Shown here piece by piece: positions 26,252 through 45,105 of a DNA stretch of 64,000 nt (position 1 is its first letter; each line of letters opens with the position of its first letter). The notes below the pieces were generated by a model, which worked only from the letters and a program-made list of their open reading frames with translations, was not told the origin of the DNA and did not search any database. Made by a program: the position numbers and the translations under genes. The DNA is from Jiangella muralis (GTDB lineage Bacteria; Actinomycetota; Actinomycetes; Jiangellales; Jiangellaceae): the NCBI RefSeq assembly GCF_001270745.1, contig NZ_KQ434751.1, positions 579,539 to 643,538 on the forward strand, written 5' to 3'.

Positions 26252-27757
26252 ATGTCCGTTCGGACGTCAGCCGCGGCGAGCATCGCCGATGTCGTACCCG
26301 CCGTGGTGTCCGGACGATCAGCGCCCGACGCCGACTTCCAGCTCACGCCGTCGACGACGATCGTCGCGGCGGGCGCGGCGGAAGCGGCGGGGACGTACCT
26401 CGCGGAGGTGTTGCGCCCGGCGACCGGCTACCCGCTGCCGGTCGTGCCCCGCGAGTCGCCGGACGGAGGGATCGTGCTGGTGCTCGGTGGCGCCGACCCG
26501 CGGGTCGGCGCCGCCGGCTACCAGCTCGTGGTCGACCGGCGACGGGTCGTGTTGCGGGCGGCCACCGCGGCCGGGTTGTTCGCGGGTGTGCAGACGCTGC
26601 GTCAGCTGTTGCCGGCCACCGTGGAGTCCCGGCAGCAGCAACCGGGACCGTGGACCGTGTGCGGCGGCGAGATCCTCGACTACCCGAGGTTCGCCCACCG
26701 CGGCGCGATGCTCGACGTCGCCCGGCACTTCTTCACCGTCGAGGAGGTGAAGCGGCACATCGACCTGATCGCCCAGTACAAGATCAACGTGCTGCACCTG
26801 CACCTGACCGACGACCAGGGCTGGCGGCTCGAGATCACCAGCTGGCCGCGGCTGGCGACCCACGGCGGCGGCACGCAGGTCGGTGGTGGACCGGGCGGCT
26901 ACTACACCCAGCGGGAGTACCAGGACCTCGTCGCCTACGCCGCCGCCCGGCACGTCACGATCATCCCGGAGATCGACATTCCGGGCCACAGCAACGCCGC
27001 GCTGTCCGCCTACGCCGAGCTGACCTGCGACGGCGAGGCGCCGCCGCCGTTCACCACGTCCGGCACCGCGGTCGGGTTCAGCTCACTGTGCGTCGACAAC
27101 GACAGCACCTACCGCTTCGTCGACGACGTGCTGGAGGAGTTGTCCGCGCTGACCCCGGGAGGCCGGGTCCACATCGGCGCCGACGAGGCGGACGTCACCC
27201 CGCCCGAGGGCTACCGGAAGTTCGTCCACCGTGCGCTGGCCATCGCGGCGGGCCACGGCCTCGAGGTCACCGGCTGGCACGAGGTGCTGCGCGCCGACCC
27301 GCCGCCGGCCACGGTGGTCCAGTACTGGGGCACCAGCGGTGTCGACAACCTCGTCGCCGCCGCCACCGCCCGCGGCACGGAGATCGTGCTCTCCCCCGCC
27401 AGCCGGGCGTACCTGGACATGAAGTACCACCGCGGCATCCCGATCGGCTTCAAGTGGGCGGGGTTCATCGACGTCGACGAGGCGTACAACTGGGACCCGG
27501 GCAGCTTCCTGCGCGACGTACCGGAATCCGCCGTGCTCGGCGTCGAAGCTCCGCTGTGGTCGGAGACCCTGACCAGCCGCGACGATCTGGACTTCATGTC
27601 CTTCCCCCGGCTCCCGGCCATCGCCGAGCTGGGCTGGTCGCCACGGTCCACCCACGACCGTCAGGACTTCGCCCGCCGGCTCGCCCGCCACGGCGCTCGA
27701 TGGACGGCACAAGGGGTGGCCTTCTATCCCTCGACCCAGATCCCCTGGCCGGCCTAA
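26252..27757 (+). CDS. GH20 beta-N-acetylhexosaminidase, probably cytoplasmic
   Basis: A 501-residue GH20 enzyme with the N-terminal GH20b domain (about 25-130) and catalytic barrel (about 140-500): LDVARHFFTVEEVKRHID, HLHLTDDQGWR, PEIDIPGHS and the catalytic Asp311-Glu312 pair. The usual HxGGDE motif reads HIGADE here, a Gly-to-Ala change beside the catalytic residues. No signal peptide is seen, so it probably finishes oligosaccharides imported after the secreted GH84-like enzyme acts. Start ATG 26252 follows GAGGAGACGC. The stop codon abuts a regulatory site for the next gene. Confidence 0.9.
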   Translation: MSVRTSAAASIADVVPAVVSGRSAPDADFQLTPSTTIVAAGAAEAAGTYLAEVLRPATGYPLPVVPRESPDGGIVLVLGGADPRVGAAGYQLVVDRRRVVLRAATAAGLFAGVQTLRQLLPATVESRQQQPGPWTVCGGEILDYPRFAHRGAMLDVARHFFTVEEVKRHIDLIAQYKINVLHLHLTDDQGWRLEITSWPRLATHGGGTQVGGGPGGYYTQREYQDLVAYAAARHVTIIPEIDIPGHSNAALSAYAELTCDGEAPPPFTTSGTAVGFSSLCVDNDSTYRFVDDVLEELSALTPGGRVHIGADEADVTPPEGYRKFVHRALAIAAGHGLEVTGWHEVLRADPPPATVVQYWGTSGVDNLVAAATARGTEIVLSPASRAYLDMKYHRGIPIGFKWAGFIDVDEAYNWDPGSFLRDVPESAVLGVEAPLWSETLTSRDDLDFMSFPRLPAIAELGWSPRSTHDRQDFARRLARHGARWTAQGVAFYPSTQIPWPA

Positions 27758-27771
27758 CTGGTATTGCCAGT
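27757..27771. promoter_or_regulatory. GntR-type operator copy A, before flavin oxidase
   Basis: ACTGG-TATTG-CCAGT has perfect 5-bp arms and begins on the last base of the GH20 stop codon, 28 bp before the flavin-oxidase start. It matches copies at 33248, 36130 and 45026. The shape (TGGT-N3-ACCA core) is typical of FadR/FCD-type GntR regulators. Confidence 0.65.
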
Positions 27772-27799
27772 AAGGCCACGGCCTGCGAGACTTCGTCAC

Positions 27800-29119
27800 A
27801 TGGAGAGCCGGCTGGTGGCCCGCGGCGATGCGGGCTTCGAGAACCTCGTGCGCGACCTGGTGTGGAACGGGCGCAAGCCCACGGTGGTGCCGAAGATCAT
27901 CGCCCGGCCGGCCGACGTGGCCGGCGTGGTCGAGGCGCTGGCCGTCGCCCGGCGCGACCAGCTGCCCGTCGGGGTGCGCTCCGGTGGGCACAACTGGCTC
28001 GGAGTCTGTCTACGGCAGGACGGCATGGTGATCGACCTGTCCGCCCTCCGGCAGGTCGAGATCGCCCCCGACCTGTCGACCGCCAGGCTCGGCCCCGGTG
28101 TCACCAACGACGTCCTGCATACGGCGGTCGAGGAGGCCGGCCGCGCGTTCCCCGTCGGCCACTGCCCGAGCGTCGGCGTCGGCGGCTACCTGCTCTCGGG
28201 CGGGTTCGGGTGGAACAGCGGCGAGTGGGGCATGGCCGGCGAACGCGTGCGGCGGGTCGAGGTCGTGACCGCGGCCGGGGAGGTTCTCGTCGTCGACGAG
28301 GACCACCATCCGGACCTGCTGTGGGCGGCCTGTGGGGCGGGCATGCTGTTCCCGGCGGTCGCCACCTCGTTCGAGGTCGAGCTGGCCACCCGGCCGCGGC
28401 ACATCGAGTGGGCGACGCTGGTCTTCGGCCGCGACCAGACCCGCGCGGTGGCGGACTGGTTCTCGACGCGGCAGCGGCAGGCGCCGGCGAACGTCGAAGC
28501 GGCGTTGCGGGTCCACCGGGACGGACGCGACGGGGCGACGCGGCTCGAGGTGACGGCGGTGTCGTTCGCCGGGGACCGGGACCAGGCGAACCACGACCTG
28601 AGGCCGTGGACGGAGCCGGTCGGCCAGGTGTCGCCCCTCTCCGTCACGAGGACGGCGGGCGGCGTGCGCGACCTGTTCGCCGTCGAGGACGCGCTGCATC
28701 CCGTCGGCGCCCGCTACGCGACGGACAACGTCCAGTGCGACGAGCCGCTGCCGTCGCTGCTCGACCAGCTGGTCGTGGCGATGGACCGCGCCCCCAGCCA
28801 CCTGTCGTTCATCGGCACCGGCGTGAATCCGGCCGGCTCGTCCACCGCCGAGGGCGCCTTCTCGGTGGCGATGTCCACGTTCGCCTACCCGGTCGCCATC
28901 TGGGAGAGCGCGGCCGGCGACGGGGCGAACGACGGATGGCTGCGGGAGACGATGCGACGCGTCCCGTCGGCGCGCACCAGCTACATCGCCGAGACCACGC
29001 CCGAACTGCACCCGGGCGGCGTCCGGGACTGCTTCTCGGCCGAGTCGTGGGAACGGCTGACGAGAGTCCGCCGGCAGTACGACCCGGCCGGGCTGCTGAA
29101 CGTCGCCTACGTCGAGTAG
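27800..29119 (+). CDS. BBE-type FAD-linked oxidase, probable bicovalent flavin
   Basis: A 439-residue berberine-bridge-enzyme-like oxidase. The FAD-binding PCMH domain fills the first half; His64 in RSGGHNWLG and Cys122 in GHCPSVGVGGYLLSGGFGW are the two residues that bind FAD covalently in bicovalent family members. The C-terminal RQYDPAGLLNVAYV is the usual BBE ending. Such enzymes oxidise alcohols, sugars or amines with O2. No signal peptide is seen. ATG 27800 is chosen because homology starts at MESRLVARG; the ribosome site is weak. The promoter carries operator copy A, tying it to the nucleoside regulon. Confidence 0.88.
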   Translation: MESRLVARGDAGFENLVRDLVWNGRKPTVVPKIIARPADVAGVVEALAVARRDQLPVGVRSGGHNWLGVCLRQDGMVIDLSALRQVEIAPDLSTARLGPGVTNDVLHTAVEEAGRAFPVGHCPSVGVGGYLLSGGFGWNSGEWGMAGERVRRVEVVTAAGEVLVVDEDHHPDLLWAACGAGMLFPAVATSFEVELATRPRHIEWATLVFGRDQTRAVADWFSTRQRQAPANVEAALRVHRDGRDGATRLEVTAVSFAGDRDQANHDLRPWTEPVGQVSPLSVTRTAGGVRDLFAVEDALHPVGARYATDNVQCDEPLPSLLDQLVVAMDRAPSHLSFIGTGVNPAGSSTAEGAFSVAMSTFAYPVAIWESAAGDGANDGWLRETMRRVPSARTSYIAETTPELHPGGVRDCFSAESWERLTRVRRQYDPAGLLNVAYVE

Positions 29120-30435
29120 GTCTGCATCGTGCGCCCGTGGCCCCGTTGCCGCAGCCGCTCGGCCCGCCCGCCCACCTCCCGCATGATCTCGGTCTCGTCG
29201 AGCGTGAGCAGGCGGCGCCGGCGCATCAGCACGCGCCCGTCGACGATGGTGGTGTCGACGTCGCCGGCGCGCGCGGCGTACACCAGGGCGGCGGAGACGT
29301 CGTGCACCGGCTGGACGTGGGTGCGGTCGAGCCGCAGCAGAATCACGTCGGCCAGGTAGCCGGGGAGCAGCCGGCCCAGTTCGTGCCCCTGGCCGAGGGC
29401 CTGCGCGCCCGCGCTCGTGGCCATCGCCAGCGCACTGTGCAGGGGCAGCGCACGGGCATCGTGCAGCTCGTGCTTCTGCAGCATGGCCGCCAGCCGCAGC
29501 TGTTCCAGGATGTCCAGCGTGTTGTTGCTGGCCGCCCCGTCGCTGCCCAGCCCCACCGGCACGCCCGCGGCGCGCATCGCCGTGACCGGGGCGATCCCCG
29601 AGGCCAGCTTCAGGAAGGTCTTCGGGCAGTGCGCCACGCCCGCGCCGCTCGCGGCCAGGAGCGCGATGTCGTCGGGGGTGGCGTGAGTGGCATGCGCGCA
29701 AAGCAACCGGCCGTCGGTCAGGCCGAGCCGCTGGAGCAGGCCGATGGGCGTGACGCCGTGAGCGGCCAGGCTCGCGTCCACCTGTGCCGCCGACTCCGAG
29801 ACGTGGATGTGGCAGCCCAGGCCGAGCCGGTTCGCCTCGCGCGCGACCTCGCGCAGGAAGTCGGGCGGGCAGGTATACGGTGCGTGCGGACCGAGCCAGG
29901 CCTGAATGCGTCCGCCCGCCGCCCGGTGCCACCGTCCGGCGAAGGCTTCGGCGGCCGCCAGTTCGGCACGTGGATCGGCGCCGAACATGGTGGGCGCGAG
30001 GTGAGCGCGGATGCCGCCGGCCTCGGCCGCCTCGGCGATCACGTCCATCTCGATGTAGTGGTCGGCGACGGTGGTGACGCCGCCCGCGATCATCTCGGCG
30101 ATGCCCAGGCGCGCACCCCAGGCGACGTCGTCGGGCGTGAGGTTCGTTTCCATCGACCAGACGTAGTCGTTGAACCACTCGTCGATCGGCACGTCCTCGG
30201 CGGACCCGCGGAACAGGGTCATCGCCGTGTGCGCGTGGGCGTTGATCAGCCCCGGCAGCGCGGCCATGCCGGTGCCGTCGATGATCTCGTCCGCCTCGTC
30301 CGACTGGACCCGGCCCGCGGGCTGGATGGCGGCGATGCGACCGCCCGTGATGGCGATGTCGTGCTCCGGCAGCACGCGCGTCGCGTCGTCGCCCGGATCG
30401 ACCGCCGTGACGTTGCGGATGAGCAGGGTGTACAT
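29107..30435 (-). CDS. MTA/SAH deaminase-like amidohydrolase
   Basis: A 442-residue amidohydrolase of the 5-methylthioadenosine/S-adenosylhomocysteine deaminase group, which also contains guanine, 8-oxoguanine and s-triazine deaminases. Metal and catalytic landmarks: His67/His69 in NAHAHTAMTLFRG, GPHAPYTC, HIHVSES, CAHATHATPDD and GLGSDGAASNNTLD. It likely deaminates an aminopurine base or nucleoside in the cytoplasm, fitting the adenosine deaminase, nucleoside hydrolase and nucleoside-type importer nearby. It follows the CehA/McbA-like gene by 8 bp. Its end overlaps the convergent oxidase by 13 bp. Confidence 0.87.
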   Translation of the reverse strand: MYTLLIRNVTAVDPGDDATRVLPEHDIAITGGRIAAIQPAGRVQSDEADEIIDGTGMAALPGLINAHAHTAMTLFRGSAEDVPIDEWFNDYVWSMETNLTPDDVAWGARLGIAEMIAGGVTTVADHYIEMDVIAEAAEAGGIRAHLAPTMFGADPRAELAAAEAFAGRWHRAAGGRIQAWLGPHAPYTCPPDFLREVAREANRLGLGCHIHVSESAAQVDASLAAHGVTPIGLLQRLGLTDGRLLCAHATHATPDDIALLAASGAGVAHCPKTFLKLASGIAPVTAMRAAGVPVGLGSDGAASNNTLDILEQLRLAAMLQKHELHDARALPLHSALAMATSAGAQALGQGHELGRLLPGYLADVILLRLDRTHVQPVHDVSAALVYAARAGDVDTTIVDGRVLMRRRRLLTLDETEIMREVGGRAERLRQRGHGRTMQTYST

Positions 30436-30443
30436 GGGCGGCC

Positions 30444-32963
30444 TCAGCTCTCTGCCAGGCGCAGCCGGGCCTGGACGGCGGCCCGCGCCTGATCGAACGG
30501 CTTCACCAGGAACGCGCGGTGATCGCCACCATGGTGGTGCATGGCCGCCTCGGCCGCGGCCGCGGCCGCACGGTGTTCGACGTAGGACCGGCCGCGTTCG
30601 ATCAACGTCAGGATGTCCTCCAGGGCCCGGCGGTCCGTGACGGTGCGTTCTCCGCAGGCGACGTACACCGGCGACGTGTGCGCCATGATCGACCGCCGCC
30701 ACACGTCTCGATGCAGCGTGAGGTGCTCCGGCCCGCTTCCGCCGACCCGCACGGCCAGCCACCCCGGCCGGTCGCAGCGCACGTTCTCGTCGAGCGACAG
30801 GTCGTGCACCCCGGCGTCGTTCTCCGAGGACGCGATGACCCGCCCGTTGTGCACCAGTTCCAGCCGGCACATGGGGAAGATGCCTCGCGCCGTGGCCCGG
30901 ACGGACACCGTCCCGCCCTTCTCCGGGAGGCCGACGGTGTCGCCGATGCCCCGACCGTCGACGGACAGGCTCAGCAGCGGCCCGCTGCTCATGTAGCTGC
31001 GGCCGGCTCGCAGAGCCCGGTGCCAGGCGTCGTAGCCGAAGTCGTCGTCGTTCCCGAGGCGCACGTAGGTGCGCGACATCCCGATCGGGACCTCGTTCGT
31101 CATCTTGTCCGTGCCGCCGTTGACCGGCAGGCGGTAACCGGCATTGAGATAGCGGTAATAGTGCAGGAACATGAGCTCGGACCACAGGCCCAGCGACTCC
31201 ACCGAGTCGACCCGATCGGTGGCGATCATCGCCGCCTGCTCCCCCAGCGGCAGCGGGAAGTGGGGAACGACGACGGTGCCGCCCTGGGCATGACAGCGGT
31301 CGGCCCAGTCCGACAACGTCGTGTCGAGCCCGCCACCGAGCTCGGCCTCCTCGGGGCCGTCGGTGGACCACGGCAGCACCGGCTCGGTCAGGCCCAGCAG
31401 GCTCAGGTGTCCGAGGAAGTGCTGACGGTTCTCCTGCGACGTGTAGAGGACGGTCTGCCCGTCGTCGCTCGTCACCGGGCGGCCGATGAAGTCCTCGGTG
31501 TTGGTGAACAGGTTGCCCCACTGGGACTGCAGCAGGTGCACCACCGAGACGCCCTCGGCGGCGGCCTCCTTCAGCCCGCCGAAGCTGGACACGAAGTGGA
31601 CGTGCGTGTCGCCGCTGTACCAGCGGTCCTTGCCGAGGTCGTGGACGCGCTCGACCCGCAGGGTCAGCTCCCGGGTGTCGTCGCCGACCCGGACGAGCCG
31701 GTCCACGGGCTCGTACTCGAAGCCCTTCGCCACCCGCACGCGCACGTCGCCCCGCGGCAGCCAGCCTTCGCACCGGCCGTCGGTGTAGGCGTAGGTGGTG
31801 CGGCCCAGGCGCACGTCGGCGCCGACGTCGAGGTGCCAGCTCGATCGATCGCCGTTCACGTGGTGGTGATGGCCGTGCGGCTGATACGGGACGCCGTCGG
31901 GCGAGGTGAAGTTCACCCGGCAGGCGACCGGCTCTCCGGTGGCATCGTCCACGATCGTGGTGCGGACCCAGTTGCGGCCCAGCTCGGTCACCCGCAGCGA
32001 GCCCGGCCGTCCGGACGCGCGCCCGGCCAGCTCCGCCCAGCGGGCCTGCTCGATCGTCTCGCCGTTCGCCTCCAGCCGCAGCGTGCCCGACCCGGTCGAG
32101 GACACCCGCGCGTAGACGGCGGTCACCTCGGCGTCCGGGGCATCGCCCCAGGCGGCGAGCGGGTCGCCGGCGGCCGGCTGGCGCAGCAGCGGGGTCGTGT
32201 ACGTGACGGTGCCGCGGTCCACCGTGATCTCCAGATCCGAGCCGTCGCCGGTGTAGCCGGGTGGCACCTCGGCCGTCACCGCCCGGGCCGGCTCCGGCAG
32301 CAGCGGATGCTCGTCGACGAACCCGAGACAGATCCCGCCGACCTCGACGACCGCCTCGGCCGGTTCGAGGTCGATGCGGACGACGTCGTGCTCGGGCCGA
32401 GGGTTGGTCCACGACCACAGGAACCAGCGCGGCCGCGTCTCGACGCCCTGCAGCCGGAAGCTCGGTCCGCCCGGCCGATCCGACCAGCGGCCGCCCGCCA
32501 CCACCCCGGTCAGCTGGGCGCCGGCGTCGGCGAAGTGGCCGACGTCGCGATCGGGCCGGCCGTCCTGCTCGTCGGGCACCGCCAGGCTCGGCTGCATCCC
32601 CCACCCCAGCGACGGGAGGTCGGTCTCGAAGCCGTCCCTGATCGGCACCCGCACCGACTCGCCGTCGGAGAAGCCGAAGCGGTAGACGGCGCTGACCCGG
32701 TTCAGTGCGGTGAAGCCGGGGCTCGCGTCGCCACGGGTCCGGTGCGCGAACGTGACGGTCCTGACCCTGGCCGCCGTCTCCAGCGCGACGGTCCGCGTCT
32801 CCCCCGGCTCCAGGCGTACGACGCGCGGGCGGCCGCCGTCCTCCGGGGCCCGGAACGGCAACCCACGGGCCAGGACCTCGCCCCGCCAGGCGGCGGCGTA
32901 CGGCAGCTCGACGTCGTCATCGGCGTTGGCCTGCGACGTGAGGTCGACTGGCTGGTAGTCCAT
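30444..32963 (-). CDS. CehA/McbA-family metallohydrolase-like protein
   Basis: An 839-residue protein with no signal peptide. Residues about 1-430 are beta-rich accessory domains with a His-rich loop (HGHHHHVNGD near 363-372). The metal site starts at His454/His456 in SGDTHVHF, with later candidates in VVPHFPLP and the PHP-like segment around RLPVNGGTDKMT. CehA and McbA hydrolyse the carbamate carbaryl, but most relatives are uncharacterised, and this one is far larger. It is in an operon with the MTA/SAH-deaminase-like gene. A hydrolytic role is likely; carbamate use should not be assumed. Confidence 0.75.
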   Translation of the reverse strand: MDYQPVDLTSQANADDDVELPYAAAWRGEVLARGLPFRAPEDGGRPRVVRLEPGETRTVALETAARVRTVTFAHRTRGDASPGFTALNRVSAVYRFGFSDGESVRVPIRDGFETDLPSLGWGMQPSLAVPDEQDGRPDRDVGHFADAGAQLTGVVAGGRWSDRPGGPSFRLQGVETRPRWFLWSWTNPRPEHDVVRIDLEPAEAVVEVGGICLGFVDEHPLLPEPARAVTAEVPPGYTGDGSDLEITVDRGTVTYTTPLLRQPAAGDPLAAWGDAPDAEVTAVYARVSSTGSGTLRLEANGETIEQARWAELAGRASGRPGSLRVTELGRNWVRTTIVDDATGEPVACRVNFTSPDGVPYQPHGHHHHVNGDRSSWHLDVGADVRLGRTTYAYTDGRCEGWLPRGDVRVRVAKGFEYEPVDRLVRVGDDTRELTLRVERVHDLGKDRWYSGDTHVHFVSSFGGLKEAAAEGVSVVHLLQSQWGNLFTNTEDFIGRPVTSDDGQTVLYTSQENRQHFLGHLSLLGLTEPVLPWSTDGPEEAELGGGLDTTLSDWADRCHAQGGTVVVPHFPLPLGEQAAMIATDRVDSVESLGLWSELMFLHYYRYLNAGYRLPVNGGTDKMTNEVPIGMSRTYVRLGNDDDFGYDAWHRALRAGRSYMSSGPLLSLSVDGRGIGDTVGLPEKGGTVSVRATARGIFPMCRLELVHNGRVIASSENDAGVHDLSLDENVRCDRPGWLAVRVGGSGPEHLTLHRDVWRRSIMAHTSPVYVACGERTVTDRRALEDILTLIERGRSYVEHRAAAAAAEAAMHHHGGDHRAFLVKPFDQARAAVQARLRLAES

Positions 32964-33027
32964 CCGATCACCGTTCTCGAGTCACTTCAGGTGTGAAGAC
33001 CTCGCCCCGCGCCCGGGTCGCCGGAAC

Positions 33028-33110
33028 GATCAGGTGACGTTCCGCCGTCGCACGTGCCGTCTTGGTCACCTGATCGCCCTCCGTCCGCATCGTGGCGCCG
33101 ATCAGGTGAC
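33028..33110. repeat. three copies of GATCAGGTGAC in intergenic DNA
   Basis: GATCAGGTGAC occurs at 33028-33038, inverted at 33065-33075 and direct again at 33100-33110; copies one and three share 13 bp (CGATCAGGTGACG). The first lies inside GGAACG-N9-CGTTCC. Spacing is about 35 bp. The 343-bp gap 32964-33306 has no convincing gene; a short reverse frame here reads as low-complexity sequence. Confidence 0.55.
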
Positions 33111-33154
33111 GCAGCGGCGATCGGCCGGCGAGCGCAACGGGCGACAGGGCCCAC

Positions 33155-33210
33155 GGTTGATCATCAACCATGTGGGCTGCTATCACGACACAGAAGGTTG
33201 ATGATCATGG
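33155..33210. repeat. GGTTGATSATC palindromic motif pair
   Basis: GGTTGAT-C-ATCAACC at 33155-33169 is a perfect 7-bp-arm inverted repeat flanked by CCCAC and GTGGG, so it can form a larger stem. A related GGTTGATGATCATGG follows at 33196-33210. They look like an interspersed palindromic repeat or hairpin, between two divergent genes. Confidence 0.45.
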
Positions 33211-33247
33211 AACCGGCGCCACCTTCCGGCGAGCTCGACGTACGCCA

Positions 33248-33262
33248 ATTGGTATTACCGGT
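33248..33262. promoter_or_regulatory. GntR-type operator copy B, before dimethylformamidase-like gene
   Basis: ATTGG-TATTA-CCGGT differs from the consensus by a symmetrical pair (TTGG/CCGG) and keeps the TATTA centre. It lies 44 bp upstream of the next start codon. Confidence 0.6.
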
Positions 33263-33306
33263 ATAGCCTATCGTTCCGAGGATGGCACGCCAAGACGACG
33301 ATCGGA

Positions 33307-35400
33307 GTGAGTGTGGGCTACGACATCATCGGCTACGCGCCGAAGTGGCACGCGAGGCCCGGTGACAAGGTCCCGATCCACGTCTCGAGCCGGCACCCGG
33401 AGTTCTGGGTCCACCTGCTGCGCGTCACCGACTTCGTCGACGGCCCGGAGGCGTGGGCGAACTGCGCCGTCGAAGAGCCCGCGGCCGGTCCGTTCACCGG
33501 CGTCGACGTCCCTCTGGTGACCGGTTCCTACCTGCACGCCCGCGACTGCCGGGCCGACGTGACGGACGTCAGCGTCGAGGTGACGTTGTGGACCCGCGCC
33601 GCGCAGGCCGAGCCGTCGACGGTCATCCAGTACGCCGGGGACCGGGGCCCGCTGTCGCTCGACCTCCACCCGGACGGCGCCCTCGTGCTGCGCCGGGGCG
33701 ACGAGTACCCGACCGGCCTGGAGCTGCGGCCGCGCCGGTGGACGCGGGTCGCGCTCGCCGTCGGAGCGGACGGAGTCACCGTGACGGCGGACGGCCACCA
33801 GACGTTCGTGCGCCTGGACGGGCCCGGCCGCCTGCGGGACCTGCTGATCGGCGGGGAGCTGGACGCGACGTCGCCGAGCGGGGCCCGCGGGCGCCTCGAC
33901 GCCAAGATCGAGGCTCCCACGCTGCGGGCGCCGGACGGCGCCGTCCTCACCTCGTGGGATCTCGGCCGGCTCCCCTACCGCAACGACGTGCCCGACAGCC
34001 ACGGGATCTTCGCCGGCTCCGGCCTGGTCAACGAGCCCACGCGCGCGGTGACGGGCTCTACCTGGCGGGGCCGGCAGCTCGCCTTCGAGGACGCCCCGGC
34101 CGAGTACGCCGCCGCCTACCTGCACCGCGACGACCTCGGCGACGCCGGGTGGCCGGTCGGTGTCGAGCTGGAGCTCCCCGCCGGCGCCCGGTCCGGTGTC
34201 CTCTGCGCGGTGCTCTCCGTCGACGAGGTGCCACGCTTCGACGACCCGAGCCGCTTCTTCCCCGTCTCGCTGTTCGTCGCCCCGCCCCGCGACGCGACGC
34301 CGCCCGACGTCACCCTGGTGTTGCCGACGTTCAGCTACCGCTCGTACGCCAACAACGCGTACTGGGAGGACGCCCCGGCCGGCATCTACACCACGAAGGG
34401 CGAGACGTCGTCGAAGCACGTCTACGACTACCTCGCCGAGACCGGCATGAAGTCGCTGTACGGCAGCCACCCGGACGGGTCCGGCGTGCACCTCGCCTCG
34501 CTGCGACGGCCGCAGGCGACCATGCGGCCCGATTGGCTCTACCAGCTGGTCGGTCGCCCCCACCAGCTGTCGGCCGACCTGTCCATCGTCGGCTGGCTGT
34601 CGCGCTCGGGGCTCGACTGGGCGATCACGACCGACGAGTTCCTCGACGCCGACGGTGTCGCCGCCCTGGCCGGCTCGCCGACGGTGCTGACCGGAAGTCA
34701 TCCGGAGTACTCCACGGAGAACCTGCTCAACGCCTACGACGACCACCTTGCCGCCGGTGGGAACCTCATGTATCTCGGCGGGAACGGGTTCATCCTGCGC
34801 GTCGACGTGCCCGCCGACCGGCCGTGGATCCAGGAGCTCCGGCGCGGCAACCACGACTGCACCATGTGGACCGACGAGCCCGGCGAGACGCGGCATCAGG
34901 TCTCGGGTCGTCAAGGCGGGATGTGGCGGTACGCCGGACGCCCGCCGAACCTGCTCACCGGGCTCGGCTACAGCGCGGTCGGGTTCTCCCGCGACACCGC
35001 CTACGTCGCCCCGGCCGACCTGGACCTCGACGCGCTCCCCCGGCAACTGGCCAAGGTCATGGGCGAGATCGGCGGCGACCCGTTCGGCGTCTGCGGCTTC
35101 GAGATCGACTGCCACGACGTGACCCTCGGGTCCGACGCGAGCTGCGTCGTCCTCGGGCGCGCGGTCGACATCCCGCCCGAGTACCGGCCAGTCACCGACT
35201 ACCTGAGCCTCGACGACGACCCGGTGCGGGCGGTCGCCGACGCGGTCCGCGGCGACGTGGTGTGGCGCCGCACGGGCGCCGGTGGCCAGGTCTTCGCCGT
35301 CGGCTCGATCTCGTGGACGCGACACCTCTCGGCCGAGGGCGACCCGGGGCGGTGCCGGGAGATCCTGGACGCGGCGCTGGCCGGCATGACGAGTCCGTGA
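33307..35400 (+). CDS. N,N-dimethylformamidase large-subunit-like protein
   Basis: A 697-residue protein resembling the large (beta) subunit of dimethylformamidase, an iron amidohydrolase. An N-terminal LamG-like beta region (about 60-200) precedes the core with VLPTFSYRSYANNAYW, SKHVYDYLAETG, SGLDWAITTDEFLD, GSHPEYST and YLGGNGF, a fold related to glutamine amidotransferases. No small-subunit gene is adjacent, and relatives of this type are widespread and mostly uncharacterised, so it may act on another N-substituted amide. GTG 33307 is used; GTG 33313, with CGGAG at a better distance, is possible. Operator copy B lies upstream. Confidence 0.75.
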   Translation: MSVGYDIIGYAPKWHARPGDKVPIHVSSRHPEFWVHLLRVTDFVDGPEAWANCAVEEPAAGPFTGVDVPLVTGSYLHARDCRADVTDVSVEVTLWTRAAQAEPSTVIQYAGDRGPLSLDLHPDGALVLRRGDEYPTGLELRPRRWTRVALAVGADGVTVTADGHQTFVRLDGPGRLRDLLIGGELDATSPSGARGRLDAKIEAPTLRAPDGAVLTSWDLGRLPYRNDVPDSHGIFAGSGLVNEPTRAVTGSTWRGRQLAFEDAPAEYAAAYLHRDDLGDAGWPVGVELELPAGARSGVLCAVLSVDEVPRFDDPSRFFPVSLFVAPPRDATPPDVTLVLPTFSYRSYANNAYWEDAPAGIYTTKGETSSKHVYDYLAETGMKSLYGSHPDGSGVHLASLRRPQATMRPDWLYQLVGRPHQLSADLSIVGWLSRSGLDWAITTDEFLDADGVAALAGSPTVLTGSHPEYSTENLLNAYDDHLAAGGNLMYLGGNGFILRVDVPADRPWIQELRRGNHDCTMWTDEPGETRHQVSGRQGGMWRYAGRPPNLLTGLGYSAVGFSRDTAYVAPADLDLDALPRQLAKVMGEIGGDPFGVCGFEIDCHDVTLGSDASCVVLGRAVDIPPEYRPVTDYLSLDDDPVRAVADAVRGDVVWRRTGAGGQVFAVGSISWTRHLSAEGDPGRCREILDAALAGMTSP

Positions 35401-35404
35401 CGCG

Positions 35405-37206: not shown

Positions 37207-37667
37207 GACGTCTCCTCGTAGGACGTGATCGCGTCGATCTTCGCGGCGGACGGCGAGTTCGGGTCGAAGTCGTGCCGCAGCCACTCCTGCACGAGCGCAC
37301 GCGCGACCTCGATCCCGATCACCCTCTCACCCAGCGTGAGCACCTGTGCGTTGTTGCTGAGAACGGCGCGCTGGACCGAGTAGACGTCGTGGGCGGTGAC
37401 CGCGCGGATGCCCGGGACCTTGTTCGCCGCGATGGCCACGCCCAGCCCCGTCCCGCACACCAGCAGGCCGCGGTCGGCCGCGCCCGAGGCGATCAGGCGG
37501 GCGGCGGCGACGGCCACGTGCGGGTAGGCGGTGTGCCCGTCCTCGCCCACGCCCACGTCGATGACGGACTCGACGCGCGGATGGCGCTCCAGGTCCGCCG
37601 CGAGCGCGGTCTTGTGGCCGAGCCCCGCGTCGTCCGAACCGACGACGATACGAAGTCTGCTGGTCAT
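37200..37667 (-). CDS. rpiB: RpiB/LacAB-family sugar-phosphate isomerase
   Basis: A 155-residue protein of the ribose-5-phosphate isomerase B family. It has the early Asp loop ([12 protein letters not shown]), the catalytic Cys in [14 protein letters not shown] and [22 protein letters not shown]. Canonical members interconvert ribose-5-P and ribulose-5-P; relatives act on tetrulose phosphates. It follows the DhaK-type kinase with ATGA overlap and precedes the adenosine deaminase, so it should act on the phosphorylated sugar released from the imported compound. Confidence 0.88.
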
Positions 37668-39364
37668 CGTGCCGGCCTCTCCGTGAGGTGCTGAGTGATC
37701 GCCGCGGCGAGGAGCGCGAACGAGGTGGCGCCAGGGTCGGGATGGCCGAGACTCTTCTCGGCCAGCGGCCGGGCCCGGCCCAGCCGGGGCCGCAGGCCGG
37801 CGGTCGCCGCCGCGGCCTCCCGGGCGGCGGCCGCGGCTTGTCGCCAGGCGCCGGTGCCGGTCAGCACCGCGACGAACGGCTCCATCGCGTCCACCATCGT
37901 CTTGTCGCCGGCCCGCGCGCCGCCCAGCTCCGAGATGGCGGCGAGGGCGGCGGTGACGGCGTCCGTCCCGGTGCCGGTGTCCAGGGTTCCGGCCGCGTTG
38001 ACGACGAGGCCGGCCGCCTCCAGCCCCGCACCCCACAGCGCGCCGGAGGTGCCGGCGCCGTGCTCGGCCCAGGCCCGGCCGGCCGCGACCAGCACGGCGT
38101 CCGCCGCCTGGTCTCCTCCGGCCGCCGCCGTCGCGGCGGCGAGCGCGGCTCGCGCGCCCCGGACCATGCCGGACCCGTGGTCACCGTCCCCGGCGACCGC
38201 GTCGAGGCGGGCCAGGGCGGACTCGTGCTCCTCCAGGGTCGAGCAGACCACCGCGAGCGCGGCCACCACGTCGTCGGCGGCGGCCATCAGTTCGGGGGTC
38301 GGCGGCCGCGGGAGGCGGACGGTGGCATCGCTCCACCGCCCGACGTCCGGGACGGCGTCGCCGGCCGCGGCCCGCTCCGTCTTCACGAACGCCGGGCTCG
38401 CCGCGGGAGCCCGCCACAGCCGCTCCAGCTCGTCGTCCAGCCAGCACACCGTGAGCGAGACGCCGCCCATGTCGAGGCTGGTGACCAGCTCGCCGACCTC
38501 GGGCTCGACGACCTCGATCCCGCGCTCGGACAGCAGCCCGGCCACGTCCTTGAACAGCACGAACAGCTCCTCGTACGTCACCGTGCCGAGCCCGTTGACG
38601 ACCACGGCGAGCCGCGCGCCGTCGCCGGCCCGCTCGGCGAGCAGGGCGTCGACCAGCAGCGCGGCGATCTCGCGCGACGAGGCCAGCGGCCGGTCCTCGA
38701 TCCCGGGCTCACCATGGATCCCGAGGCCGACGGACATGACGCCGGCGGGCACCTCGAACAGCGGCTGGCCGGCGCCGGGCAGCGTGCACCCGGAGATCGC
38801 GACCCCGAGCGTCCGGGTGCGCTCGTTGGCCTTCCGCGCGACCCGCTCGACGGAGTCGAGATCGGCGCCGGTCTCCGCGGCGGCGCCCGCGATCTTGACC
38901 ACGACGAAGTCACCGGCGATGCCGCGGCGGCGCTCCCGCTCCGCGGCCGGTGCGCTGGCGACGTCGTCGGTCACCAGGACGGTGCGGACGTCGTGGCCCT
39001 CCGCGCGCAGCCGCCGCTGGGCGATGCCGAAGTGGAGGACGTCACCCGCGTAGTTCCCGTACACGAGCAGGACGCCCGCTCCGGCGTCGACGGCGTGGCA
39101 GACCCGGTAGGCCTGCGCGGCGGACGGCGAGGTGAAGACCTGGCCGCACACCGCCCCGGCGGCGAGGCCGGGGCCGACCAGTCCGGCGAACGCCGGGTAG
39201 TGGCCCGAGCCGCCGCCCAGGACGACGCCCACGTGGCCGGCCGGCCGCGCCGCCACCCGGACCACGCCGCCGTCGACCCGGCGCACGTCGCGGCCGTAGG
39301 CGAGCGTCAGCCCTTCGAGCGCCTCGTCGACGAACGTCCCGGCGCCGTTGTGGATGGCGGTCAT
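37664..39364 (-). CDS. dihydroxyacetone-kinase-type kinase, DhaK-DhaL fusion
   Basis: A 566-residue ATP-dependent DhaK-DhaL fusion. The K domain (1-330) has [10 protein letters not shown] and His217 in LGIHGEPG, the residue that binds the ketose covalently as a hemiaminal. The L domain (about 370-566) has the ADP-Mg loop [10 protein letters not shown] and [13 protein letters not shown]. Such fusions phosphorylate dihydroxyacetone, tetruloses or other short ketoses. Paired with an RpiB-type isomerase and a TIM-barrel isomerase, as in known tetritol catabolism, it probably phosphorylates a ketose made by the upstream isomerase. ATGA overlaps couple it to both neighbours. Confidence 0.9.
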
Positions 39365-40344
39365 CGAGGTGCCTCCTCGCTCAGCGACGTCAGCAGGTCG
39401 CGAAGGTAGCGCCGGTTGGTGGCGCTCACCGAGAGGCCGTCCCCGCCGTAGTGCTCGCAGGTGATGACCCCGGCGTAGCCACAGTCGAGCGCGGTGCGCA
39501 GGGCGTCGCGGTAGTCGATGACGCCCAGTTCCATCGAGGTGGGCGCGGTGAGGACGGCGCCGCTGCCCGGGTCCTCCAGGCGGAGGTAGTTCTTGACGTG
39601 CCAGTAGTTCGACCACGGCAGGACCGCGGCCAGCACGTCCCCCGGCGGCTCCGCCGGCCGGTGCAGCCGGATCAGGTTGCCGGTGTCGGGGTTGAGGCCG
39701 ACGTCGTCCCGGCCGATCTCCTCGACCAGGCGGATGGCGCTCTCGGCGGTGCCCAGGAAGGTGTCCTCGTACATCTCGAGGGTCAGCAGCAGTCCGAGCG
39801 ACGCCGCGTGCTCACCGAGCTCGCGCAGCCGGGTGACCGCGAGCGCCCGCAGCTCGCGGTCGTCCGGGTCGTTCGCCAGGTGGTCGCGGGTCCAGAACCA
39901 CCACGCGGCCGCCTGCTCACTCGTCAGCGGCTCGTGCAGTCCCACTGAGACGACCCGGGCGCCGAGCGCTGCGGCCGCGTCGATGGCGCGGTGGCTGTAG
40001 GCGAGGTTCTCGTCGCCGTGCCGGGGATCGATGACGCTGGCCCGGATCAACGCGACCGCCGCGACCGTGAGGTCGTTCTCCCGGCACGCCGCGGCCAGGT
40101 CGGCCAGCTCCGCGTCGTCCAGGTCGCCGGCCCGCAGCCACGTGTCGGTGATCTCGACGTGGTCGAAGCCGGCGGCCGCCAGCTCGCCGAGCCGGGCCGC
40201 CCATTCGGCGCGGCCGCCGGACCGCGCCGGCCTCCCCCGGCGATCGACCGCGGGGAAGGGCAGCGTGCCGGCCGCGATCGGCCAGGTCCCGGAGTCGAGA
40301 TCGGCCGCTCGGTGGGTCTGTCGCACTCGCGAGATGGTGGTCAA
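39361..40344 (-). CDS. sugar phosphate isomerase/epimerase family protein (TIM barrel)
   Basis: A 327-residue AP-endonuclease-2-fold sugar isomerase/epimerase. Metal-binding Glu/Asp/His candidates are in HVEITDTWL, LTLEMYEDTF, LNPDTGNLIRLH, YWHVKNYL and VITCEHYGGDG. These enzymes interconvert aldoses and ketoses or epimerise sugars or their acids. Start is TTG 40344 because AGGTGA lies 7 nt upstream and no ATG/GTG fits; a later GTG six codons in is possible. The stop overlaps the kinase start (ATGA). It lies 20 bp after the importer permease gene. Confidence 0.83.
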   Translation of the reverse strand: MTTISRVRQTHRAADLDSGTWPIAAGTLPFPAVDRRGRPARSGGRAEWAARLGELAAAGFDHVEITDTWLRAGDLDDAELADLAAACRENDLTVAAVALIRASVIDPRHGDENLAYSHRAIDAAAALGARVVSVGLHEPLTSEQAAAWWFWTRDHLANDPDDRELRALAVTRLRELGEHAASLGLLLTLEMYEDTFLGTAESAIRLVEEIGRDDVGLNPDTGNLIRLHRPAEPPGDVLAAVLPWSNYWHVKNYLRLEDPGSGAVLTAPTSMELGVIDYRDALRTALDCGYAGVITCEHYGGDGLSVSATNRRYLRDLLTSLSEEAPR

Positions 40345-40364
40345 CGTGCGATCACCTGCTTCGG

Positions 40365-41258
40365 TCAGGCCGCCGCGAGCGACCGGCGGCGCAGCGACCG
40401 CAGTCCTGCGACGCCCAGCGCGATCACGGTGACGACGTACGGGAAGGCGGCCAGGGGGTCGGTCGGGATGGTGGTGCGGACCTGCAGCAGCGTGCTCAGC
40501 GCCTGGCACGCGCCGAACGCGGTCGCCGCGATGATCGTGCCGACCGGATGCCGCAGGCCCAGGTAGACCGCGGCCAGCGCGATGAAGCCGCGGCCCTGCG
40601 TCATGTCGCGGACGAACGTGTGCGTGGTGGCCAGCGAGAGCTGCGCGCCGGCGATGCCCGCGAAGACCCCGGAGAGGCTCATGGCCAGCCACTTCACCCG
40701 CGTCGGGGAGATGCCCGCCTCGACGACGGCCGGTGCGTTGCCGCCCACCGCCCTGATCCAGATCCCCGGCTTGGAGTGGAAGTAGAGGTAGACGAAGACC
40801 GGGGCGAGCAGGATCGTGGCCCACGTGATCGGCGACTGGTCCGCCAGCGCATTGAGGACCGGAACGTCGTCGAGGAACGACAGGTTCACCGTGGGCAGCG
40901 GATCGGACGCGAGATCGTCGGCGCCCTGGCCCTTGCTCTTGTTGATGGCGAAGAGCAACGTCACCGTGCCGCCGGCGGCGAGCAGGTTGACGGCGATGCC
41001 CGCCAGCACGAAATCGGCGCCCAGCGACAGGTGCGACCACGCCAGCACCAGCGCGAGCGCGAGCCCCGCCGCGGCCGCCACCGCGAGCCCTCCCCACGGC
41101 CCGAATACGGTGGTGGACACCGCCGCGCCGGCGAAGGCGCCACCGAGCATCATGCCCTCGATGCCGATGTTGTCCACTCCGGCCCGGACGGTCAGGAGAC
41201 AGCCGAGCGCGGCCAGGACCAGGGGCGTCGCCAACTCGAGAACGCTTGCCAGGTACAT
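40365..41258 (-). CDS. ABC importer permease, BMP/nucleoside type (second)
   Basis: A 297-residue inner-membrane permease of the BPD_transp_2 family with about eight hydrophobic segments. VRAGVDNIGIEGMMLGGAFAGA and GRGFIALAAVYLGLRHPVGT are the signature regions of NupQ-like nucleoside or RfuD-like permeases. ATG 41258 overlaps the stop of the partner permease. Confidence 0.92.
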   Translation of the reverse strand: MYLASVLELATPLVLAALGCLLTVRAGVDNIGIEGMMLGGAFAGAAVSTTVFGPWGGLAVAAAAGLALALVLAWSHLSLGADFVLAGIAVNLLAAGGTVTLLFAINKSKGQGADDLASDPLPTVNLSFLDDVPVLNALADQSPITWATILLAPVFVYLYFHSKPGIWIRAVGGNAPAVVEAGISPTRVKWLAMSLSGVFAGIAGAQLSLATTHTFVRDMTQGRGFIALAAVYLGLRHPVGTIIAATAFGACQALSTLLQVRTTIPTDPLAAFPYVVTVIALGVAGLRSLRRRSLAAA

Positions 41259-42340
41259 CAGCGGGTCACCTCCATGACGTCGCCCTGCGCTGTCCCGGGT
41301 TGCTCCGTGGCGGGCGCGGCCACCGCCGGGGTGCGGCTGCGTGCGTCCCGCCGCCGGAGGAGGGCGGCCAGGCCGATGATGAGCACGCCCTGGAGGACCA
41401 CGACGACGTCCCGGGGAACGTTGCCGGTGATCTGGATGATCTCTCCGCCCGTGCGCAGGTACCCGTACGCCAGCGCGGTCAGGGGCACCAGGCCGGGGCG
41501 GTTGACCGCCAGCAGGGCGACGAGGATGCCTTCGAAGCCGATGCCGGCGCCCATGCCGACGATGAGGCGATGCGTGCCGCCGAAGGCGATGGCGGCGCCG
41601 GTCAGGCCGGCGACCGCACCGGACACCACGAAGGCGACGCAGATGAGGCGGCGCACGGGATAGCCGTTGGCGCGGGCGAACGGCCGGCTGTCGCCCACCA
41701 TCCGCAGCCGGAAGCCGAGGCGGGACCGGTTGAGCAGGAGGCTCACGCCAACGCAGCTCAGGATCGCGAACACCAGCGAACTGGGGATGGTGCCCCAGCT
41801 GGGTAGCCAGGTCCCCTGGTCGAAGTAGTCCGAGACCGGGAAGCCGGCCCCGTCCGGGAGCAGCGCCTCCTTGATCACGAAGGCGAACGCGAAGGTCGCC
41901 ACGAAGTTGAGCATCAGGGTGGTGACGATCTCGTCGGCGTTCAGGTAGGCCTTCATCAGCCCGGGCAGGAGCGCCCAGGCAGCACCGCCGGCCACGGCCG
42001 CGAGCACCGCGAGCGGCAGCGCGAAGCCGCTGGGCCCCAGCGCCAGGGCCACGCCACCGGCCGCCAGCGCGGCGACGAAGACCTGGCCCTCGGCGCCGAT
42101 GGAGAACATGCCGACGCGGAAGACCAGGCAGACGCTCGCACCGACGAACATGAGGTAGCTGGAGTACGACAGCCATTGCGCCATGCGCCCGTCGCTGGAC
42201 ACCGCGCCGGTGAGCAGGCCGTCCACGGACGCCGGCACGTTGTCGCTGGTCAAGGCCAGCAGGGCCAGAACCAGTAGGCCGGCGCCGACGACGCCGGCCG
42301 CGAGGCGCGCGGCGAACCGCCAGTCGAGGACCGTGCTCAT
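41258..42340 (-). CDS. ABC importer permease, BMP/nucleoside type (first)
   Basis: A 360-residue permease of the same importer with about ten hydrophobic segments; FRVGMFSIGAEGQVFVAAL and GIGFEGILVALLAVNRPG are the NupP-like signatures. A polar C-terminal tail follows the last helix. Its ATG overlaps the ATPase stop (TGATG). Confidence 0.92.
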   Translation of the reverse strand: MSTVLDWRFAARLAAGVVGAGLLVLALLALTSDNVPASVDGLLTGAVSSDGRMAQWLSYSSYLMFVGASVCLVFRVGMFSIGAEGQVFVAALAAGGVALALGPSGFALPLAVLAAVAGGAAWALLPGLMKAYLNADEIVTTLMLNFVATFAFAFVIKEALLPDGAGFPVSDYFDQGTWLPSWGTIPSSLVFAILSCVGVSLLLNRSRLGFRLRMVGDSRPFARANGYPVRRLICVAFVVSGAVAGLTGAAIAFGGTHRLIVGMGAGIGFEGILVALLAVNRPGLVPLTALAYGYLRTGGEIIQITGNVPRDVVVVLQGVLIIGLAALLRRRDARSRTPAVAAPATEQPGTAQGDVMEVTR

Positions 42341-43887
42341 CAGGCCGCCTCGGCGAGTCTCGCACCGAGCATGAGCGCGCCGAGGACCTTGGCGTCGACG
42401 TCGTCACCGTTGGGCACGTCGGCGACGACCTCGCCCTCCCGGAAGACCACGATGCGGTTGACCACCGCCAGCACCTCGTCCAGATCGCTGGACTGGAGGA
42501 CCACCGCCGCTCCGGCGTCGGCCGCCGCGGCGAGACGGGAGTGAACGCTCGCGATGGCGGCGACGTCCAGGCCGCGGGTCGGCTCGCACACGACCACGAC
42601 CCGAGGGGAGGTCGACAGCTCGCGCGCCAGCACCACCTTCTGGACGTTGCCGCCGGAGAGGCTGCCGACCGGTTGCAGCTCGTCCCGGCAGCGCACGTCG
42701 AACTGCTCGATCAGCTCCCGCGCGTGCCGGCGCACCGCCTGTCGCCGCATGAACCGGAACCTGGTGAAGCGCGGGTCGCCGAGCCGGTTGGCCACCAGGT
42801 TCTCGGCGATGCTGAGGTGCTTAGCGACCCCCGCACTGAGCCGGTCCTCGGGCACGAACGCCACGTCGGATGCCATGGCCCTGGCCCGCCCCCAGCGACG
42901 CTGGCGCGCACCGAAGAGACTGAGCTCGCCGCCGGCCGGCGGGCGGACCCCGGCCAGCACCTCGCACAGGAGCTGATGCCCGTGCCCGTCGATGCCGACC
43001 ACGCCGGTGATCTCGCCGGACCGGAGCTCGAGACTGACGCCACGCAACGAGGACGACGTCGGGTGGACGGCGGACAGGTCCCGCACCGCCATCGCGACCC
43101 CGAGCGGGACGCGCTCGGTGCGGCTCAGCGCGACGGTGGAGGAGCCGACCATGTCGGCGACCAGCTCGGCCTGGGTGACGGTTCCGACCCGGTGCTCGGC
43201 CACGACGGCCCCGTGCCGGATGACCGTCACGTCGTCGGCCAGCAGTTCGACCTCGTCCAGTTTGTGGGTGATGAACAGCACCGACACACCGGTGCGCTGC
43301 AGCCGCTTGACGGCGTCGAACAGGCCCTCGCGCTCCTGCGGCGCCAGCAGCGCGGTCGGCTCGTCGAGGATCAGGATCTGCGCGCCCCGGTAGAGCGCCT
43401 TGAGGATCTCGACCCGCTGCTGCTGCGACACCGTCAGGGCCGACACCCGCCGCTCGAGCGGGATCTCCACCTGGAGCTCGCGGCACAGGTCCTCGACCTT
43501 CGCTCGCGCGACGTCCCGGTCCACGACCCCCCAGGAGGTCTGCTCGGCGCCCAGCGAGATGTTGTCGAGCGCGGAGAGCTCGGGAACCAGGCCGAAGTGC
43601 TGGAACACCATGCCGATGCCCGCGGCGATCGCGTCCTTCGGCGCCGCGAACGTCCTGGGCTCGCCGTGGATGCGGATCTCACCGGAGTCCGGCGTGAGCA
43701 CCCCGAAGAGGATGTTCATCAGCGTCGACTTGCCCGCGCCGTTCTCGCCGAGGATGGCGTGCACGCTGCCCCGGCGCAGCGACAGCGACACCGATCGGTT
43801 GGCGTGCACCGGCCCGAAATGCTTGTCGACGTCCCGGAGCTCCAGCACGACCGGGGCCTGCGCGCGCATATCGTCCGGCCGGGTCAC
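42340..43887 (-). CDS. ABC importer ATPase with two nucleotide-binding domains
   Basis: A 515-residue tandem ATPase of the RbsA/NupO type. Domain 1 has Walker A GENGAGKST, an unusual signature region LTVSQQQRVEI and Walker B ILILDEPTALL. Domain 2 has a degenerate Walker A around GIDGHGHQLL, SGGNVQK and VVVCEPTRGLD, so mainly domain 1 should hydrolyse ATP. It powers the two permeases. Start is GTG 43887 (GTGA overlap with the lipoprotein stop); ATG 43869 is the alternative. Confidence 0.93.
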   Translation of the reverse strand: MTRPDDMRAQAPVVLELRDVDKHFGPVHANRSVSLSLRRGSVHAILGENGAGKSTLMNILFGVLTPDSGEIRIHGEPRTFAAPKDAIAAGIGMVFQHFGLVPELSALDNISLGAEQTSWGVVDRDVARAKVEDLCRELQVEIPLERRVSALTVSQQQRVEILKALYRGAQILILDEPTALLAPQEREGLFDAVKRLQRTGVSVLFITHKLDEVELLADDVTVIRHGAVVAEHRVGTVTQAELVADMVGSSTVALSRTERVPLGVAMAVRDLSAVHPTSSSLRGVSLELRSGEITGVVGIDGHGHQLLCEVLAGVRPPAGGELSLFGARQRRWGRARAMASDVAFVPEDRLSAGVAKHLSIAENLVANRLGDPRFTRFRFMRRQAVRRHARELIEQFDVRCRDELQPVGSLSGGNVQKVVLARELSTSPRVVVVCEPTRGLDVAAIASVHSRLAAAADAGAAVVLQSSDLDEVLAVVNRIVVFREGEVVADVPNGDDVDAKVLGALMLGARLAEAA

Positions 43888-44945
43888 GACGGGGTCAGCT
43901 CCTCGTCGTACACGCCTGCCTCGAGCTCCGCGACGAGCTCCCTGATCCGCTCCTGGATCTCCGGCGGGACCACGGCGGTGTACAACGGGGTCTCCACCAG
44001 GGAGACGGTCCCGTCCTCGACCCCGTAGACGCCGGCGGTGCCGCCCTCGAGGGTGTCCTCGTGCCAGGCGATGACGGCCCGCTCGAGTGAGGTGCCGACC
44101 TCGACCACCGCGGCGGTCAGGACGGTGTCGACGCCGCCGACCTTCGGGTCGACGACCTGTTGCTTGTCGTCCCCGATGGCCCAGAGGTCGTGTGCGGCGG
44201 CGGCCTCGAAGATGCCCTTGTCGCTGCCTCCGGCCGCGGCCACGAGCACGTCGGCACCCTGACTGATCATGTCCTCGGCCACCGCCTTGCCCTTGACCGG
44301 GTCGGTGAACGAGGCGACATAGGCCGTCAGCACCTCGACGTCGGGCGCCACCGTCGCGGCACCGACCTCGAAACCCTGGAAGTACTCGGCGATCACCGGG
44401 ATCTCCTGCCCGCCGACCATGCCGATCGTCGGGGCGCCCGACGGGTCGACCTTGTCGATCCCGGGCGTCGAGGCCATCAGGGCGGCCAGCGCCCCGCCGA
44501 GGAATCCCACCTGCGTCGAGTGGTAGGTGATCGAGTAGACGTTCTCGCAGGCGCACGCGTCGTAGTCGACGGACGCGTCGAAGATGACGAACGTCTTGTC
44601 CGGGTTGGCCTCGGCGGCCGCCTGGACCATGTCGGCCATCGCGAAGCTGCCGGTGACGATGAGACCCGCGTCTCCCGCGACGAGGTCGTCGAGCGCGGGC
44701 TGCCACTTCGTCGGGTCCGTGCCCGCCTCGACCACCTGCGCTTCGATGCCCGCCTCGTCGGCCGCCGACTCGATGCCGGCCTTCGCGCTGTCGAGGAAGC
44801 CCCCGTCACCGGTGGTTCCCGGCAGCAGCAGGGCGACGTCGGCGCCGCCGCCGGAACCGGCGGACGTCTCACTGCCACACCCCGCGGCGGTAAGCAGACA
44901 GGCAGTAGCGACCAGACCGGCCACCACTTTGTGAATGGGTCTCAT
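43884..44945 (-). CDS. BMP-family substrate-binding lipoprotein
   Basis: A 353-residue basic-membrane-protein/PnrA-like binding lipoprotein. A signal sequence ends in the lipobox LTAAGC (Cys23). VALLLPGTTGDGGFLDSAKAGIE, GSFAMADMVQAAAEANPDKTFVIFD, GFLGGALAALMA and DKGIFEAAAAHDLWAIGDD are family landmarks. PnrA-type proteins bind purine nucleosides, which fits the adenosine deaminase encoded in the same operon and the nucleoside hydrolase across the promoter. First gene of the nine-gene operon. Confidence 0.92.
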   Translation of the reverse strand: MRPIHKVVAGLVATACLLTAAGCGSETSAGSGGGADVALLLPGTTGDGGFLDSAKAGIESAADEAGIEAQVVEAGTDPTKWQPALDDLVAGDAGLIVTGSFAMADMVQAAAEANPDKTFVIFDASVDYDACACENVYSITYHSTQVGFLGGALAALMASTPGIDKVDPSGAPTIGMVGGQEIPVIAEYFQGFEVGAATVAPDVEVLTAYVASFTDPVKGKAVAEDMISQGADVLVAAAGGSDKGIFEAAAAHDLWAIGDDKQQVVDPKVGGVDTVLTAAVVEVGTSLERAVIAWHEDTLEGGTAGVYGVEDGTVSLVETPLYTAVVPPEIQERIRELVAELEAGVYDEELTPS

Positions 44946-45025
44946 CGAACCTCTCCTCGTGCCACTCGTGACAGGCGGCGGCCCTACTGAGAGCTGCCTT
45001 GTGACCTTGTGACCAGCCAGAAGAA

Positions 45026-45040
45026 GCTGGTATAACCAGT
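45026..45040. promoter_or_regulatory. GntR-type operator copy D, between the two divergent operons
   Basis: GCTGG-TATAA-CCAGT contains the perfect palindrome CTGGT-ATA-ACCAG and is the closest of the four copies to an ideal FadR-type site. It lies in the 160-bp gap, 80 bp before the BMP gene and 65 bp before the aminotransferase gene, able to control both operons. A tandem GTGACC repeat lies beside it at 45001-45014. Confidence 0.7.
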
Positions 45041-45105
45041 ATTACCGCACGAACCGGGGATGAACGTCAAGGAATCCGCCGGATGATCACAGGAGGCAGA
45101 ATTTC

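Follow-up and report, generated by a model that had tools for sequence, protein, structure and literature searches.

Transcription regulators of the FadR subfamily, such as PdhR, LldR, GlcC and FadR, combine a GntR helix-turn-helix with an FCD effector domain. In the survey by Suvorova et al. (2015; PMC4494728), most groups of the subfamily are assigned operators of the form TKGT/ACMA, in which 3 nt separate GT from AC, and weaker accessory boxes are reported 7–12 nt from many GntR sites, in 23 orthologous groups. The same text gives direct repeats for two regulators, TGGTATAW for NanR and TGGTATT for NagQ, a member of the HutC subfamily. For Escherichia coli NanR, a paper in Nature Communications (2021; PMC8012715) reports that (GGTATA)3 is occupied by three dimers, that a single repeat is bound poorly and that cooperativity is mediated by a 32-residue N-terminal extension. 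A further FCD-GntR protein is HypR of Streptomyces coelicolor, for which the motif in PMC6608401 differs from the element described below.

The locus considered here lies within a 64,000-nucleotide stretch of Jiangella muralis DNA, the whole of which is referred to as the window. It encodes a regulator of 224 amino acids (35405–36079, minus strand), in which Pfam places a GntR helix-turn-helix at residues 14–76 (6.6e-18) and an FCD domain at residues 93–211 (9.9e-19), an architecture in common with the FadR subfamily. The best PDB sequence match is PdhR (2.2e-22), and the top NCBIfam model is NanR, at 63.4 bits, far below the cutoff of 260. The N-terminal extension described for NanR is absent, the helix-turn-helix match starting at residue 14, and an alignment shows that the N-termini of homologues are short too. 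Seven aligned regulators share an invariant recognition-helix segment, VSRPV, and the residues REA that follow it. By the tests made on its sequence the protein classes as an FCD-GntR regulator and not as NanR, and by analogy it may work like a repeat-operator repressor. As with NanR on (GGTATA)3 there are at least two closely spaced GGTAT-type repeats, the second box lying at +9 and being weak at 27757, but the boxes here are near-palindromes, unlike the NanR repeats. NagQ has a similar repeat word but belongs, according to PMC4494728, to another GntR subfamily, whereas the present regulator has an FCD domain. What sets the locus apart from the FadR subfamily is that at three sites the first box is directly adjoined by a second, always 9 bp on, and that the genes served look like nucleoside catabolism. 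No paper among the PMC matches listed was recognised by title or abstract as describing this regulon.

A gene map based on open reading frames, third-position GC, start codons and family searches (Pfam, NCBIfam and PDB) places the regulator gene, gntR, last in a nine-gene minus-strand operon that runs from 44945 down to 35405. The four genes of a BMP-type ABC importer come first (40365–44945; two permeases, an ATPase and a binding lipoprotein, with Pfam BPD_transp_2 twice, ABC_tran and Bmp). These are followed by a xylose-isomerase-like TIM barrel protein (39361–40368; AP_endonuc_2), a dihydroxyacetone-kinase-family protein (37664–39364; Dak1 and Dak2, NF011049 above cutoff), an RpiB-type sugar-phosphate isomerase (37200–37667; TIGR02133 above cutoff) and an adenosine deaminase of 376 codons (36076–37206; A_deaminase, NF006847 above cutoff). 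A divergent plus-strand run of five genes (45106–50144) encodes, by Pfam, a class III aminotransferase, an SDR, a cyclase-family protein, a nucleoside hydrolase and a TrkA_N-domain protein. On the other side of the main operon lies a plus-strand gene for a DMFase large-subunit-like protein (DMFA; 33307–35400; DMFA2_C 1.4e-55), with a PDB match to N-acetyl-(R)-beta-phenylalanine acylase (2.3e-63). Beyond it are minus-strand genes for a CehA/McbA-domain protein (30444–32963) and an amidohydrolase (29107–30435) that in the PDB is best matched by an MTA/SAH deaminase (4f0r, 9.2e-80), and then plus-strand genes for an FAD-dependent oxidase-like protein (flavin oxidase, FADox; 27800–29119; FAD_binding_4 and open reading frame list) and a GH20 enzyme (26252–27757). 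The flavin oxidase gene starts at ATG 27800, with an upstream TTG at 27764 as a possible alternative. Judged by this family content the cluster looks like one for nucleoside uptake and breakdown. The GC content of the cluster is not outstanding (0.722 versus 0.723 and 0.730).

It is likely that the FCD-GntR protein is a local, ligand-released repressor of this nucleoside-catabolism cluster, of about 16 genes, and that it acts through three predicted two-box operators. The protein would bind at 27758–27777 (CTGGTATTGCCAGTAAGGCC), before the flavin oxidase gene, at 33249–33268 (TTGGTATTACCGGTATAGCC), before the DMFase-like gene, and at 45027–45046 (CTGGTATAACCAGTATTACC), in the gap that separates the importer operon from the divergent aminotransferase operon, all given on the plus strand. 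Each operator would consist of two abutting near-palindromic 9-bp boxes and hold two dimers. Release would follow when the FCD domain binds the compound on which the cluster acts, probably a plain or modified purine nucleoside, or something formed in its breakdown, and four units would then be switched on together: the importer/deaminase/sugar operon, the aminotransferase–nucleoside hydrolase operon and the single genes for the DMFase-like protein and the flavin oxidase. As the last gene of the main operon, gntR would itself come under the 45027 operator. We infer the binding, its action as repression rather than activation, the two dimers per site, the inducer and the promoter positions.

An earlier note on this DNA had proposed such a local regulon, under the last-gene FCD-GntR, from four 15-mers at 27757, 33248, 36130 and 45026. 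All four are present, and nothing else in the window fits RYTGGNNTNRCCRGT exactly; at up to two mismatches it has 77 matches there, compared with 46.8 expected. The claim that they lie 28–80 bp before start codons is borne out, with gaps of 28 bp to the flavin oxidase gene (ATG 27800), 44 bp to the DMFase-like gene (GTG 33307), 50 bp to gntR (ATG 36079) and 65 and 80 bp at the divergent promoter (45106 on the plus and 44945 on the minus strand). Over the 7.27-Mb genome the 15-mer pattern has 30 exact matches against 51 for the reversed pattern used as a control, so that it proves little alone, and it was rejected as a genome-wide discriminator. The generic TGGT-N3-ACCA was found to be uninformative, with 50 genome places against 124 for its control, and among the four sites only 45026 fits it. 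Leave-one-out 15-mer matrices run within the window recover 27757, 33248 and 45026, and it is at these three, with their two-box form and the recurrence of the element beside related regulators, that the proposed regulon stands, but not at 36130. The proposed response of about 16 genes agrees with the gene map (9+5+1+1, with the amidohydrolase and CehA/McbA genes left out of the count), but their operators are the sole grounds for including FADox and DMFA, because the 35.5-kb stretch with the related cluster in genome G466 (see below) has no match to either, and orthologues lend these two operators no backing. The site at 33248 is 284 bp from the start of the CehA/McbA gene at 32963.

The sites at 27757, 33248 and 45026 extend into a longer element, overlooked in the earlier reading, that is composed of two abutting 9-base boxes, roughly TGGTATNRC-NNGTANNRCC. 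The sites, this form and the association with related regulators are direct results of computation, and a plain TGGT-N3-ACCA palindrome does not account for the whole operator as had been supposed, the three good sites being two-box arrays with a 9-bp period. The only exact genome matches to TGGTATNRCNNGTANNRCC are at these three sites, with 43 matches at up to two mismatches against 150 for the control, and YTGGTATNRCCRGTATNRCC has three genome matches at 0–1 mismatches (the same three sites), none at 2 and 16 at 3, against 32 in all for its control, both patterns having been written from sites already seen. Over 11 sites, each oriented so as to show the second box, identity to GGTATTACC averages 7.5/9 at offset 0 and 6.9/9 at +9, compared with at most 3.1/9 at the other offsets from -30 to +30. 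For the second box of the three window sites together the Fisher value is 5.8e-7, which allows for both sides but is uncorrected for the 9-bp period having been noticed in the same sites.

The sites could also be ordinary single palindromes of the FadR type, each bound by one dimer, with the second box as a weak accessory half-site of the kind found in the GntR family. The first box fits TGGT-N3-ACCA, and against the TKGT-N3-ACMA form in PMC4494728 it fits exactly at 45026 (TGGTATAACCA) and deviates once, in the ACMA arm, at both 33248 and 27757; the accessory boxes reported there for 23 groups would also suit this arrangement. The second box is weak at 27757 (5/9) and at the TIM gene of G466 (4/9), and one site in genome G719 has a weak first box (5/9). 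However, the second box reaches 7–9/9 at a fixed 9-bp offset at 45026, 33248, the G657 site, the site G719a and the gntR-near site of G466, and a single palindrome with one dimer is therefore considered unlikely. Promoter scans found no consensus promoter at the three operators, and the single terminator-like site that they returned is the operator palindrome itself. A -10 element overlapping the 45026 operator was considered and is unproven.

The two-box operators also recur beside related regulators, which are found in 8 of 341 genomes of the family of Sinosporangium siamense, S. siamense included. The element lies in or adjoins the gap upstream of gntR in seven of the eight genomes with the regulator; since five of these seven resemble one another, the supporting genomes represent about three lineages. 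Matrices made from the window only, one from the four 15-mers and one from three 20-mers, reach their top scores within the cluster or in the gap adjoining gntR at all four loci G466, G719, G678 and G657. G639, G632 and G643, examined solely by the 15-mer at up to one mismatch, each have such a 15-mer beside gntR. The scanned sites of G719 lie some 360 bp or more upstream of gntR, closer to an amine oxidase gene; in addition to these, at about 9490–9583, G719 has another two-box-like element, TGGTATGTCAGGCATGACCA, shortly before gntR (L089 9878–9897). In the G678/G657 group the element separates gntR from an operon that encodes two TIM-barrel proteins (L091 10528–10550 and L095 9668–9691) and, in G678, also an M24 peptidase and a binding protein of the NMT1 type, and the element is predicted to serve another set of target genes there.

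In the reverse direction, a matrix from seven sites of G466, G719 and G657 was scanned over the window. It ranks 45027, 33249 and 27758 first (26.8, 25.8 and 22.2), followed by alternative registers of these sites and, at 6.6, by unrelated places, a result that is only partly independent because the pattern from the window, together with inspection by eye, had guided the choice of the seven sites. With 200 column-shuffled matrices the best match was at most 20.6 (versus 26.8) and the third best at most 14.8 (versus 22.2).

Because the generic core is common to many FCD-GntR proteins, another regulator of the genome could bind the sites, and 80 candidate places are listed in the genome for the regulator as query. 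That a different FCD-GntR protein does so in place of the local one is nevertheless highly improbable, given that the element accompanies relatives of the local regulator in all but one of the genomes that have one and that cluster and regulator are both rare. It is scarcely credible that the four sites are chance look-alikes, for although the genome holds no more copies of the 15-mer than of its control and one of the four does not hold up, a matrix built from the window picks out sites next to the regulator gene in other genomes, and the shuffled matrices fall short of the scores above.

The site that fails, 36130–36144, had been put forward as an equal fourth member. The stop codon that ends the adenosine deaminase gene and the start codon of gntR overlap in ATGA, which places this 15-mer within the deaminase frame, at codons 355–359 of the 376 at the 3' end of the gene, and not in an intergenic region. 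It is just beyond the coverage of the family models (Pfam to residue 347, NCBIfam to 354), and the deaminase tail past residue 340 falls outside the local alignment with the G466 deaminase. On the relatives' matrix it scores 2.5 (register 36131), with 36 better places in the window. When the 15-mer matrix is built without it, the site scores 12.7, less than the three other sites, and is exceeded by a coding place at 34532 (14.2) and by 33257, an overlapping register of 33248 (13.5). With such a score, and inside coding DNA, equal membership is rejected, and 36130–36144 is probably not an operator in that form. If gntR has its own site, it is more likely to be a degenerate one at 36112–36130 (TGGTCAGACTGGCCAACCA, minus strand), also in the 3' end of the deaminase gene and still a weak candidate; this is the highest-scoring 9-mer unit upstream of gntR (8.8) and it aligns with a G719 element. 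Compared with the window, S. siamense has two changes in the 36130 15-mer, one of them in the left arm, and one change in 19 across 36112–36130, and neither segment shows special constraint because the surrounding identity is 88%.

Sinosporangium siamense, the one relative returned from the named genome collection, has the closest regulator, at 88% identity (L031 9923–10676). Within 10 kb either side of this gntR none of the 20 window proteins tested, gntR itself aside, was found. The DNA similarity to the window covers gntR and 74 bases upstream and ends there; one reading, which draws on one alignment, is that a segment comprising gntR and the DNA upstream of it became fused to the 3' end of the deaminase gene. 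No strong element was found near gntR or genome-wide (best at two mismatches, 27 matches against 53 for the control), and on the 15-mer matrix the gntR-proximal place scores 11.4, second to 11.7 elsewhere. As a conservation test S. siamense was thus negative, having neither the cluster nor a standout element near gntR.

An orthologous cluster is found in G466, where 35.5 kb contains relatives of 13 window proteins at 43–58% identity in a rearranged gene order: the four importer proteins, TIM barrel protein, kinase, RpiB, deaminase, nucleoside hydrolase, aminotransferase, SDR, cyclase and GntR. Elements are found on both sides of the TIM/aminotransferase gap, which corresponds to the divergent promoter with the 45027 element in the window, and two more occur before gntR; both exact matches to TGGTATNRCNNGTANNRCC in G466 are inside the cluster. 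Besides FADox and DMFA, the 35.5 kb has no match to the 29107 amidohydrolase, the CehA/McbA protein or the TrkA_N protein. Between its deaminase and kinase genes G466 has an M20/ArgE-DapE-type deacylase (L097 16717–18015), with none there in the window.

Elsewhere the cluster is rare. At 1e-20 the regulator is found in 1 of 148 relatives, namely its own genome, and is absent from the other 147, and plasmid records have no match at that threshold. The aminotransferase and DMFA protein are not found at 1e-100 in the other 21 genomes of the order (1/22 each). A conservation test within the genus or order was not possible, because the regulator, aminotransferase and DMFA protein are not found in those relatives. 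Across the class, a profile search for the regulator matched 3 of 393 genomes, two of which appear to be G719 and G466 again, from near-identical coordinates. The aminotransferase profile matched 2 of 393 at 1e-110, with the best four candidates per genome scored, and a single-sequence search 1 of 393. Such rarity suits a horizontal gain of the cluster.

A broader and more doubtful proposal is that GntR and its two-box operator travel as a module among actinobacterial families and come to serve different catabolic clusters. The cluster here would act on a modified purine nucleoside, for instance an amino- or acyl-nucleoside in view of its aminotransferase, amide-hydrolase-like and two deaminase-like genes, and the dimers would cooperate across a box spacing of 9 bp although they lack the N-terminal extension that NanR needs. 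Since that extension is held to explain the cooperativity of NanR, an FCD-GntR protein on closely spaced repeats without it could show whether two-box operators need it. An uncharacterised catabolic cluster also gains a defined candidate regulator and three exact predicted operator sequences. The gap before the DMFase-like gene contains other repeats. Three exact copies of GATCAGGTGAC, alternating in orientation, lie at 33028–33110, out of four in the window in total, the fourth being at 9945, and these are possibly sites of another regulator. At 33155–33207, GGTTGATCATCA and GGTTGATGATCA, with 41 bp between them, lie inside a 17-nt inverted repeat that is 88% complementary.
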